Positions 40,724-54,867 of a stretch of 64,000 nt of DNA are shown here, one piece after another. This DNA is from Candidatus Ligilactobacillus excrementigallinarum. Lineage in GTDB: Bacteria > Bacillota > Bacilli > Lactobacillales > Lactobacillaceae. Within the stretch, counting starts at the first letter, position 1. Each line of letters opens with the position of its first letter. Under the pieces are notes generated by a model that was not told the DNA's origin, made no database searches, and worked only from the letters and a program-made list of their open reading frames with translations. The translations under genes were made by a program, and so were the position numbers. Location: assembly GCA_019114385.1 (NCBI GenBank), contig DXFP01000036.1, forward strand, positions 1 to 64,000, given 5' to 3'.

Positions 40724-42781
40724 ATGGATAAAAAGCAAATGCAACATATGCACCACGAGATGGATCACGACATGCATATGGATCATCATGAGATGCATAT
40801 GGATCACGATATGCACAATATGAGCATGGATATGGGGAACGGCCATATGATGCATATGGGAAATATGAAACGTAAATTCTGGGTATCATTGATTTTAACG
40901 ATTCCGATTATTTTAATGACACCATTTATGGGAATACACATGCCATTTGAAATCACTTTTCCCGGTTCAGCGTGGGTAGTAACTATTTTGGGAACCATCA
41001 TCTTTTTTTATGGTGGATCGCCCTTTTTCAGCGGAACTAAAAGCGAATTAGCTAATCGTAAACCAGCAATGATGACATTAATTGCGATGGGGATTACGGT
41101 GGCATATGTTTATAGTATTTATTCAGTGATTCAACAACAGCTTTTTGGTAACAATCATGTGATGAGTTTCTTCTGGGAACTTTCAAGTTTAGTAGTAATT
41201 ATGTTATTGGGTCACCGAATTGAAATGAGTGTGGAAATGAAGGCGAGTTCTTCACTTGATTCTTTGGTAAAATTACTGCCTAAACAAGCTCACAAACTCG
41301 TTAATGGTGAAGTTCATGATTTACCTTTAAAAGAGGTCAAAGAAGGCGACTTACTACAAGTATTGGCCGGAGAAAAGATGCCTGCTGATGGAATTGTTGT
41401 TGATGGGAATTCAACCGCTAATGAATCAATGGTTACTGGTGAAGCCCGTGCAGTTGCTAAAAAGAAAGGAGATAAGGTCGTTGGCGGTTCAACTAACGGC
41501 AATGGAACCTTGACAATTAAAGTTACTGGGACAGGCGAGAGCGGCTATTTGGCACAGGTAATGAAGTTAATTAGCGATGCAAAGGCAACTAAGTCAGAAC
41601 AAGAAAATATGGCAGATAAAGTGGCTGGAACATTATTCTATGCCGCAGTGACGATTGCGTTAATCGCCTTTGTAGTTTGGTTGCATTTACGCGGCTTATC
41701 ATATGCATTGTCTGTTGCCGTAGCTACGTTAGTTGTTGCTTGTCCGCACGCATTAGGATTAGCGATTCCATTGGTTGTTGCACGCAGTACTGCAATGGCT
41801 GCTCGGCAAGGATTATTAATTCATAATCGAAATGCAATGGAACAGGTAAAAGATCTTAAGTATGCCTTGATGGACAAGACCGGAACCTTAACAGAAGGTA
41901 ATTTTAAAGTACAACAAGTAAAATCTTTGGATAATGCTGTAAGTGATGACCAAGTATTGCAAATGATGGCTGGCTTGGAAATGAATTCCAGCCATCCACT
42001 GGCAGTTGGGATTATGGAGGCTGCTAAGGCTAGTCAACTTGAAGTTAAAGCAGCTACTGATGTTGAGCAAATGACTGGAATTGGATTGCAAGGAAAAATC
42101 AATGGTCAGAAATACAGTTTGGTTTCAGCTAATGGACTGAAAAAAGAAGGTTTGACAGTTCCTGTGCTTTCAGATTTACCGGTTGCAAGCACAGTTAGTT
42201 ACTTGGTTGGTAATGGAAAAGTATTAGGATATGTAGCTCAAGCAGATACAGTAAAACCAGATTCTAAACAATTTGTGACTGAACTGAAGCGTCAGGGAAT
42301 TACTCCAGTAATGCTTACAGGTGATAATGAAAAAGCCGCTCAAGCAGTTGCCCATGAATTAGGAATTACAGAAATACGGGCAGAATTAATGCCTGAAGAC
42401 AAAGAAAAGATTGTCCGTGAGTACCAACAAAAAGGCAAAGTGATGATGATCGGTGATGGAATCAATGATGCTCCAAGTTTGACACGTGCAGACATAGGTG
42501 TGGCAATTGGTTCAGGAACAGATGTAGCGATTAATTCAGCTGATATCGTTTTAGTTAAGAGTCATCCAACTGATGTATTGAAATTTTTGAAAATTGCCCG
42601 CAAGACGACTTTGAAAATGACTGAAAATCTTTGGTGGGGAGCAGGATATAACATCATCGTATTACCATTAGCCGCAGGTATCTTGGCACCATTTGGATTT
42701 ATTTTAAGTCCAATGGTCGGGGCAATTGTAATGTCATGTTCAACAATTATTGTAGCTTTGAATGCAATGACCTTGAAATAA
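40724..42781 (+). CDS. copB: CopB-type copper-translocating P1B ATPase with His/Met-rich N-terminus
   Basis: MDKKQMQHMHHEMDHDMHMDHHEMHMDHDMHNMSM..., CPH TM motif, DKTGTLTEG, MIGDGINDAPSL. Confidence 0.9.
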   Translation: MDKKQMQHMHHEMDHDMHMDHHEMHMDHDMHNMSMDMGNGHMMHMGNMKRKFWVSLILTIPIILMTPFMGIHMPFEITFPGSAWVVTILGTIIFFYGGSPFFSGTKSELANRKPAMMTLIAMGITVAYVYSIYSVIQQQLFGNNHVMSFFWELSSLVVIMLLGHRIEMSVEMKASSSLDSLVKLLPKQAHKLVNGEVHDLPLKEVKEGDLLQVLAGEKMPADGIVVDGNSTANESMVTGEARAVAKKKGDKVVGGSTNGNGTLTIKVTGTGESGYLAQVMKLISDAKATKSEQENMADKVAGTLFYAAVTIALIAFVVWLHLRGLSYALSVAVATLVVACPHALGLAIPLVVARSTAMAARQGLLIHNRNAMEQVKDLKYALMDKTGTLTEGNFKVQQVKSLDNAVSDDQVLQMMAGLEMNSSHPLAVGIMEAAKASQLEVKAATDVEQMTGIGLQGKINGQKYSLVSANGLKKEGLTVPVLSDLPVASTVSYLVGNGKVLGYVAQADTVKPDSKQFVTELKRQGITPVMLTGDNEKAAQAVAHELGITEIRAELMPEDKEKIVREYQQKGKVMMIGDGINDAPSLTRADIGVAIGSGTDVAINSADIVLVKSHPTDVLKFLKIARKTTLKMTENLWWGAGYNIIVLPLAAGILAPFGFILSPMVGAIVMSCSTIIVALNAMTLK

Positions 42782-42879
42782 TTTATGAAAACTCGTTCTT
42801 AAGATAATCTTAACAAAGAATACGCTTTCTAGAAGATAAAATTCACAATTTCTTCACATTTAAGCTGTAAATTATGAAC

Positions 42880-43027
42880 ATAGCCTGATAGAAAAGGCCG
42901 AAACATTTTCATTACTTTTTCTCCCCTGAAAAGTAGTTGATTACAAATCATGAAACTCAAGCTTCCCCTTTGAGATTTCATAAAATATACTCCTTTTTTC
43001 TCCGCAGTACGCTGCGGAGTTTTTTTG
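42880..43027 (+). ncRNA. Candidate sRNA with two C-rich hairpin loops and terminator
   Basis: ACTTTTtCTCCCCtgAAAAGT (42914-42934), ATGAAACTCAAgcttcccctTTGAGaTTTCAT (42950-42981), CTCCGCAGtacgCTGCGGAGTTTTTTT (43000-43026). No ORF. Confidence 0.6.
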
Positions 43028-43163
43028 TTTATAAAAAAGTTTTCATATCGATTTTCTATATTACCAAAATCATTGGTGAAAAATTAATGTGATAAAATGT
43101 ATTAACCACTCTTTGATTTTATTGTGGTATAATTTGGACAACAAACATAGGAGGTATATTCAG

Positions 43164-43487
43164 ATGAATAAAATGATTGTAACTACTACGGAAAAGATTC
43201 CGGGACATAATTATGAAGTAATTGGTGAAGTTTTTGGAGTTACTACCCAATCAAAAAATTTGTTCAAAAATATCGGTGCAAGTTTGAAAAATGTAGTTGG
43301 TGGAGAAATTAAAGCTTATACTGAAATGATTCACGAAGCACGTGATAAAGCAATTAGCCGGTTGCGTGATGAAGCAGCGAGTCAAGGCGCAGATGCAGTA
43401 GTAATGATGCGCTTTGACTCCGGTTCAATTGGTGGCGACATGCAGTCAGTAGTTGCATACGGAACAGCGGTGAAATTTATTGATTAG
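43164..43487 (+). CDS. YbjQ/UPF0145 family heavy-metal-binding domain protein
   Basis: [29 protein letters not shown]...[17 protein letters not shown]; start reset to 43164. Confidence 0.88.
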
Positions 43488-43527
43488 TAGTAAGTTGCAT
43501 GAGATATAAATAAATTGGAGGTTGTGA

Positions 43528-43557
43528 TGTAAATCCAACCTCTTTTTAATTTATTTA
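43528..43557 (+). terminator. Repeat-derived hairpin terminator (R10)
   Basis: ggaggttgtgatgtaaatccaacctcttttt. Confidence 0.75.
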
Positions 43558-43596
43558 AAAAATTAATATTAAAAAGTTTATCGTTTTTCATAATAT

Positions 43597-43809
43597 GGTT
43601 ATGTAGTTGGCGGAAATGACATTGAAAGTTACATATTTTGGAAAAAAACAGGTGATCAAGTAACAATCAAAACAGTTGAAAATCCTGCAGAAAAGCATAT
43701 GAGAACGAGAGTGGCGTCCTATCAGCGACTATTACAGGATTATTATCAAACTTTGCAACAGCAACAAGAAGTAAAAGATGACACAAATAAACTTAAAGAT
43801 TGTTATTAA
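43597..43809 (+). pseudogene. C-terminal remnant of a lipoprotein related to the 18783 gene
   Basis: GYVVGGNDIESYIFWKKTGDQVTIKTVENPAEKHMRTRVASYQRLLQDYYQTLQQQQEVKDDTNKLKDCY*, no start; aligns with ...TANIYWKVNGDMVTFKRLNPNS...VSVSQLVQKYYSTPEQQSKVNNDANHL. Confidence 0.6.
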
Positions 43810-53920: not shown

Positions 53921-54730
53921 TTATCTTTCTTTAATCGTTTTTCCTTCAAACGAATAACCAAAGCCGCGCACCGTCTTAATATATTTAGGATGTTGCGGAT
54001 CAGGTTCAATTTTATCCCGCAAATGACTAATATGGATATCAACGATTCGCGACGTACCCAAATCATTGTATTCCCAAACTCCGCGCAACAATTGTTCTCG
54101 CGACAGAACTTGTCCCTTATTTTGAACAAGAAAGTAGAGTAATTTAAATTCTTTAGGAGTTAATCCTAAATCAGTTCCATTTTTTAATACCCGATAATGA
54201 TCAATATCAAGAAGCAAGTCATCTAATTTAATGTGATTATGATGATTGTGATGAGTGTCCTGAATTTCATCAGCAGGGATAAAGTCGGACGTCACCTGAT
54301 CGTCAATGTTTATTTCAGGTTCAAATAATTCAGGAACCTTTTGATGTGAGTGGACAGCACGACTCCACATTGCTTGCTGAATACGGACAATAACTTCTTC
54401 ATATTCGTATGGCTCAACCAAATAACCATCAACGTGCAACGCAAACAACTGCATTTCATAATCTAAATCTTTTTTGGATGCCAAAGCTAAAATTGGCTTA
54501 TTAAAAGTTTCTCGGATTTTTTGAATAAAGGGGAGGGTTTCTTCTTTGGTTGTAGCATCTAGATCCCAGATGATACCAGCTACATGTTTATGTTGAATAA
54601 AGTCCATTACATCTGTAATTTCAGTAGTATTGTAAACCATCCAACCATGATCGTTGCAGTACGTATTCAGTTTCATAAATAGCGGTAATTTTTTGGTTAT
54701 TAAAATTAAACGATCTTCCATGCAGTTCAC
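53921..54730 (-). CDS. OmpR/PhoB-family response regulator with degenerate receiver
   Basis: C-term wHTH LGLTPKEFKLLYFLVQNKGQVLSREQLLRGVWEYN...TVRGFGYSF; receiver RLILITKK... lacks the DD pair. Confidence 0.9.
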   Translation of the reverse strand: MNCMEDRLILITKKLPLFMKLNTYCNDHGWMVYNTTEITDVMDFIQHKHVAGIIWDLDATTKEETLPFIQKIRETFNKPILALASKKDLDYEMQLFALHVDGYLVEPYEYEEVIVRIQQAMWSRAVHSHQKVPELFEPEINIDDQVTSDFIPADEIQDTHHNHHNHIKLDDLLLDIDHYRVLKNGTDLGLTPKEFKLLYFLVQNKGQVLSREQLLRGVWEYNDLGTSRIVDIHISHLRDKIEPDPQHPKYIKTVRGFGYSFEGKTIKER

Positions 54731-54789
54731 CTTCCCTTATGTACAATTCTTCTTTTATTATTTCATACCAAATAAAAAAACACTAATTA

Positions 54790-54867
54790 TTTACAAAACA
54801 TTTACATAAAAACTACATTTAAACTTTTTTTACATAGCATTTACATGAAATCTATGGGCTTTTTACA
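54790..54867 (+). promoter_or_regulatory. Candidate Pho box (11-bp phased TTTACA direct repeats)
   Basis: TTTACA at 54790, 54801, 54829, 54840, 54862; degenerate in-phase units at 54812 and 54851. Confidence 0.8.

Follow-up and report, generated by a model that had tools for sequence, protein, structure and literature searches.

A putative response regulator-controlled small RNA with C-rich modules resembling inverted translation starts in Ligilactobacillus and related lactic acid bacteria

We describe a small RNA (sRNA) gene on the plus strand, at positions 42880-43027 of the window (the whole stretch of DNA analysed, 64,000 nt), and we propose that it encodes a trans-acting sRNA which is induced by a response regulator (RR) of an envelope-stress system and carries modules able to block the Shine-Dalgarno (SD) sequence and the AUG of its targets. 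We put the probability of this explanation as a whole at about 0.7. Sequence comparison demonstrates a conserved stand-alone unit, a structure backed by covariation, a promoter box and the co-occurrence of this box with a candidate regulator. The sRNA is a member of a large family of lactic acid bacteria, for the most part undescribed and with an uncharacterised enterococcal RNA as its sole Rfam relative, and our verdict is that a broad regulon, absent from the literature that we searched, lies behind it.

Results

The gene, of ~147 to 148 nt, is recognised by its identity in five genomes, its almost invariant core, the z-score of the fold and the covariance model score. The earlier note on this DNA had described a plus-strand sRNA with two C-rich hairpin loops at 42880-43027, and all the elements that it quoted are present. 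From the 5′ end, all on the plus strand, the predicted fold starts with a mini-hairpin, GCCU...AGGC (42883-42898), that is invariant among relatives. Module 1 (42910-42936) consists of a CAU and hairpin 1 with the loop UCUCCCCUG, the hairpin reading ACTTTT-TCTCCCCTG-AAAAGT at 42914-42934. Module 2 (42950-42981) is hairpin 2, ATGAAACTCAAG-CTTCCCC-TTTGAG(A)TTTCAT, which exposes the loop CUUCCCC and corresponds to helix 1 of the family model. Module 3 (42979-42999), a CAU with the unpaired linker AUACUCCUUUUUU, is the most conserved sequence of the sRNA family; within it, ACTCCTTTTTT (42989-42999) is unpaired and a third C-rich site, ACUCCUUUUUU, absent from the earlier note, lies unpaired directly 5′ of the terminator. 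The intrinsic terminator (43000-43026), CTCCGCAG-TACG-CTGCGGAG-T7, has an 8-bp stem and a UACG loop and corresponds to helix 2 of the family model.

The predicted folding energy of the 148-nt RNA is -34.8 kcal/mol, compared with -20.5 +/- 3.2 kcal/mol for dinucleotide shuffles (z = -4.5). As previously claimed, the strong terminator lies ~220 nt past the stop (42781) of the copper-pump gene copB, and no plus-strand ORF that would account for it was found; it is the sole terminator detected within 42300-43600. The unit thus has the general attributes of a trans-acting sRNA, i.e., a terminator, a conserved structure, the lack of an ORF, and a promoter of its own, the last recognised by sequence only. 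Its structure and its independence are well supported by these comparisons and, even taken alone, the window sRNA is, by its predicted features, a real regulatory RNA of ordinary size.

A direct repeat, TTCACA-N5-TTCACA (42842-42858, plus strand), occupies the -35 region and constitutes, from its sequence and conservation, a putative box for an OmpR-family RR. Exactly 9 nt past the box lies a -10-like element, TAAATT (42868-42873, plus strand), at a spacing that is constant among family members, and the positions of the repeat and of the -10 element place the inferred start at ~42880. The full pattern TTCACA-N5-TTCACA-N9-TAAATT (42842-42873) is unique in the window and had 0 matches in 100 shuffled windows. 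All close relatives keep TTCACA-N5-TTCAYA followed 9 nt on by the -10 element; the box plus -10 pattern occurred 44 times in 22 genomes (17 of them positive), versus a single occurrence of the reversed pattern, and the box pattern is present in 82 of 121 Lactobacillales genomes. The box also stands 5′ of htrA (genomes G000, G004, G291, and G295), prsA (G288), FtsX-type ABC permeases and further sRNAs, the htrA, prsA and ABC-permease names having been assigned by us from translated sequence. Since the system reading the box would also drive htrA, it probably responds to envelope or secretion stress. The link to copper implied by the earlier note finds no support, as htrA, prsA and ABC-permease genes have the box too and the proximity of copB to the sRNA is not conserved. 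Farther upstream, a distal repeat with an 11-bp period, TCTTAAG-N4-TCTTAAC (42797-42814, plus strand), is a possible second regulator site; TTCTTAA..TCTTAA likewise occurs upstream in G003, G010, and G018 and adjoining copB in G004.

The most likely reader of the box is an OmpR-type RR, hereafter the L157-type RR, defined as the orthologues of G000:C10:11302-12012. Such orthologues, 68 to 74% identical to the G000 protein, adjoin box-bearing ABC genes in three genera, and the three Ligilactobacillus RR-free genomes scanned with the box pattern (G007, G012, and G022) contain zero boxes. We tested co-occurrence of the L157-type RR with the htrA promoter box, scored as at least 10 of 12 matching positions plus TANNNT at the exact spacing: the box was found in 13 of 20 RR-containing genomes and in 0 of 10 RR-free genomes (Fisher p = 6e-4, with kinship making the genomes non-independent). 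The other seven htrA promoters of RR-containing genomes have no convincing box, and a Lactobacillus-like group, g54, possesses the RR (65 to 67% identity) and neither box nor sRNA. The link between box and RR is therefore only an association, imperfect as g54 illustrates. The RR itself has only generic matches in NCBIfam and PDB, its best NCBIfam model being PieR, at 306 of 450 bits and hence below the cut-off; published work offers CroR and BsrR/YclR as further possible identities.

The same sRNA might have its box read by another OmpR-type regulator (LisR-like, WalR or PhoP-like), which we regard as unlikely, if a serious contender. The htrA gene of G000 sits in the WalR gene region, and the window itself contains, at 53948-54845, two similar yet distinct boxes, TTTACA-N5-TTTACA, 5′ of pstS. 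Against this possibility, box presence follows the L157-type RR, and WalR, which is present in both genomes examined for it and expected to be universal here, would not explain the box-free genomes. A Pho-box reading, with PhoP as regulator, is not favoured, since the pstS boxes read TTTACA-N5-TTTACA whereas the sRNA and htrA sites retain a C at position 3. The pstS boxes are divergent from an OmpR-type regulator gene with a degenerate-looking receiver, a homologue of which adjoins ybjQ in G003, G010, and G018.

We propose that, upon envelope or secretion stress, a two-component system activates the OmpR-family RR, most likely the orthologue of G000:C10:11302-12012, which would bind TTCACA-N5-TTCACA upstream of the -10 element and activate the sRNA promoter. 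The resulting ~147-nt RNA would present C-rich stretches in the loops of two hairpins and within the linker 5′ of the terminator. Transcription of the window sRNA, its control by this particular RR and the nature of the signal are what we infer from the arrangement just described.

Non-coding units picked by the promoter alone contain 45 C4 runs versus 2 G4 runs, and their C-run bases are predicted to be unpaired in 292 of 353 cases (83%), versus 459 of 1144 (40%) for other C residues. In the window sRNA, each of three C-rich stretches lies 3′ of a CAU, so that the modules are reverse complements of SD-spacer-AUG. The reverse complement of module 1 is AGGGGAGAAAAAGUAAUG (SD-8-AUG) and that of module 3 is AAAAAAGGAGUAUAUUUUAUG; read in this way, the modules resemble translation starts of the types AGGGGAG-AAAAAGTA-ATG-like and AAAAAAGGAG-TATATTTT-ATG. 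Anti-SD and anti-start CAU are present in unpaired regions (42910-42927 and 42979-42999), with each CAU partly in a stem. Because a CAU stands upstream of each C-stretch at start codon spacing, each module could pair with both the SD and the AUG of a target, which would deny access to the 30S subunit and thereby repress translation. The SD-targeting layout suggested by the earlier note agrees with this predicted anatomy. The terminator loop of the window sRNA (UACG) has no C-run, and many relatives have CCCC there.

Near-matches to the modules outside the sRNA (at most three mismatches, six genomes) fall mostly at real gene starts, including those of nrdI and a thioredoxin-like gene (three genomes each), a small redox protein (two) and a flavoprotein (G000), with module 3 near-complementary to the nrdI and thioredoxin-like starts. 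These predicted matches are few and species-dependent and could reflect generic ribosome-binding-site similarity, so the redox flavour of the candidate targets is only a lead. The scarcity and species dependence of the matches would also suit an RNA that is real and box-controlled and mainly acts by binding a protein or as an RNA sponge. We judge such a role improbable, since the spacing CAU...CCCC/CUCC suits SD-AUG and agrees with the anatomy of the csRNAs (PMC3091779), and we retain start site covering as the probable mode of action on specific targets.

A covariance model, R1, comprising hairpin 2, the linker and the terminator, was trained on six sequences, including that of the window, and its search uncovered a family. 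The window RNA scores 41.7 bits, as a member of the training set. Members were found in 17 of 26 genomes of the genus (E <= 0.01) and in 29 of 201 Lactobacillaceae genomes (E <= 0.1), E-values that are rough since loops were padded with N and a bulge base was removed in three of the six training sequences. Matches at L060, L069, L071, and L097, located at coding or structureless places, were judged false. Among the species named in family-bearing records are L. aviarius, L. araffinosus, L. agilis, L. murinus, L. animalis, and L. ruminis. Several Lactobacillaceae genomes hold three to six sRNA copies; L. plantarum has three inside 5 kb, and locus L213 (G213:C40:26635-27356) has four in tandem, ~217 nt apart. 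No match was obtained in the plasmid records searched.

Across 77 distinct aligned sequences, 95.7% of the modelled pairing is kept, a proportion that leans upward because the structure guided the alignment, the slid control showing the effect to be far larger than this bias. All 16 modelled pairs show compensatory changes on both sides: the two-sided changes amount to 443 cells, versus 125 +/- 8 in shuffled alignments and a maximum of 70 in slid controls. Both-side changes affect 8/8 pairs of helix 1 (hairpin 2) and 8/8 pairs of helix 2 (the terminator), the latter with 99.3% of cells paired, and in distant family members the stem sequence is entirely different. The earlier note had named loops that vary freely in homologues as evidence against the sRNA; the opposite is seen, with C-rich loops retained while stems change, so that this objection does not apply.

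Among five related genomes of the genus (G003, G004, G010, G018, and G025), the sRNA is 97 to 98% identical, compared with 74 to 81% for the adjacent ybjQ, and a 126-nt core carries one substitution in all the genomes compared. Because ybjQ follows the sRNA on the same strand in six of six close genomes, the sRNA might be the 5′ untranslated region of ybjQ and its terminator a conditional attenuator. This we consider very improbable: relatives of the RNA adjoin unrelated genes, ybjQ has its own extended -10 element (TGGTATAAT, 43125-43133) and SD sequence, and the fold offered no alternative pairing that could act as an antiterminator.

It is still harder to regard the RNA as the 3′ untranslated region or a processed tail of the copB mRNA, even if it lies on the same strand as copB and no terminator-like site was detected in the interval from the copB stop to the terminator of the sRNA. 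Its position after copB, mentioned in the earlier note, is true of the window and incidental, as the five relatives have other genes upstream, namely a peptide transporter in G003, G010, and G018 and an ATPase gene in G004/G025, and a conserved box with its -10 element separates the upstream gene from the sRNA. This changing neighbour argues that 42880-43027 is, as far as genome comparison can tell, a stand-alone sRNA gene and not a tail of copB. An equally slim chance attaches to a minus-strand gene for a small protein (42829-42981, 50 aa) of which the plus-strand features would be the shadow: it has a perfect-looking ribosome-binding site (AAAAAAGGAG-8-ATG) and 34 N-terminal residues conserved in six genomes, but the DNA stays unchanged even at third codon positions, both the length and the C-terminal part vary freely, and the plus-strand hairpins covary family-wide, with wholly different stem sequences in distant members. 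The sRNA interpretation of the earlier note is thus borne out by a promoter and a terminator of the unit's own, a near-invariant sequence in shifting neighbourhoods and covarying stems.

Of note, G004 also contains copB followed by a truncated or broken sRNA promoter copy that is joined to the end of ssb and to rpsR (L012 1100-1620; G004:C1:1342802), an arrangement that places a rearrangement breakpoint at the sRNA promoter.

Discussion

At gathering scores, Rfam yielded no family in the window and only an adjacent tRNA in related loci. The best family below cut-off is Ref84 (RF02846), to which the window RNA scores 25.5 bits (E 0.27), short of the cut-off of 52. Box-bearing RNAs from two other taxonomic families of the order (f2 and f5) reach 41.0 and 45.1 bits with Ref84, also below 52, and E <= 3e-6 with R1, and connect the enterococcal family with the lactobacillar RNAs. 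In Ref84-like RNAs, the first base of the model lies 40 nt past the box start, coinciding with the predicted transcription start. Ref84 shares with the window RNA the order hairpin, UACUCCUU linker, terminator, and with the bridging relatives a 5′ part UACCAA...AACAAC, then hairpin, UACUCCUU(UU) linker and terminator; the window RNA exceeds Ref84 in length and differs from it by two hairpins with C4 loops. E. faecalis sRNA_109 and E. faecium sRNA_093, described as similar to Ref84 ("Enterococcus sRNA 84"), are transcribed and their function is given as unknown (PMC7724050).

Our model of SD and AUG covering follows, by analogy, the csRNAs (PMC3091779) and LhrC (PMC4132741). The csRNAs, or Ccn sRNAs, of the streptococcal CiaRH regulon are likewise multi-copy, under two-component control, and equipped with anti-SD and anti-start CAU elements (PMC3091779), and htrA, too, is reported to be regulated by CiaR (PMC10197876). 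However, the CiaR box of the csRNAs is TTTAAG-N5-TTTAAG (PMC8186281), which differs from the TTCAYA-N5-TTCAYA found here, and Lactobacillus has been reported to lack CiaH homologues (PMC3091779). A TTAAG-like repeat does occur ~80 nt upstream of the sRNA start, in reverse orientation relative to the CiaR box. In Listeria, LhrC1-5 bind SD regions through several UCCC sites in loops and in a single-stranded stretch, under LisRK control and in response to cell-envelope stress (PMC4132741). The LhrC layout places UCCC motifs in a hairpin loop, a single-stranded stretch and the terminator loop; the window RNA has C-rich motifs in two loops and the linker and UACG in its terminator loop, and it scores 20.9 bits with LhrC (RF00616; cut-off 110). 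An OmpR-family regulator tied to htrA is also typical of CssR/LisR/CroR-type envelope-stress regulons (PMC11326707).

The literature searched yielded no account of multi-copy sRNAs under two-component control in lactobacilli. Somewhat short of an even chance, in our estimate, is the broader idea of one ancestral, Lactobacillales-wide envelope-stress sRNA regulon, in which an RR reading TTCAYA-N5-TTCAYA would control htrA, prsA and ABC genes together with fast-evolving, multi-copy sRNAs (Ref84, the lactobacillar RNAs and perhaps LhrC). The stems of these RNAs would turn over while anti-start/anti-SD modules are kept, and the sRNAs would persist with new promoters where the regulator was lost (G012, G014, G021, and G022). 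The family defined here has a regulator, a promoter box and a target logic that can be put to the test in bacteria of food and probiotic use, L. plantarum among them. It also suggests a function for the enterococcal Ref84-like RNAs and offers a good case for how sRNAs retain binding modules while swapping stems.

Several further loci deserve mention. RR-free genomes retain the sRNA with C6 loops and without the box at L007, L033, and L051 (G022, G012, and G021, respectively), which suggests promoter replacement. In G000, a second box-controlled sRNA (L107, G000:C6:1986 onward) has the loop UCUAUCCCUCUUGA and the linker ATACTTCCTTTT, lies upstream of an antiporter-like gene and has orthologues in G003 and G010, and a third related RNA (L070, G000:C22:3261-3349), with a CUCCCCCU loop and a TTACTCCTTTTTT linker, has a sigma-70-like promoter in place of the box. 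In the Streptococcus-like G039 (L201/L214), the same box stands 5′ of an ABC transporter operon that is followed by a different, vex-vnc-like two-component system. Finally, the box also controls a long RNA at L209 (G036:C26), in which three or more hairpins each carry a CCCCCUAA-type loop.
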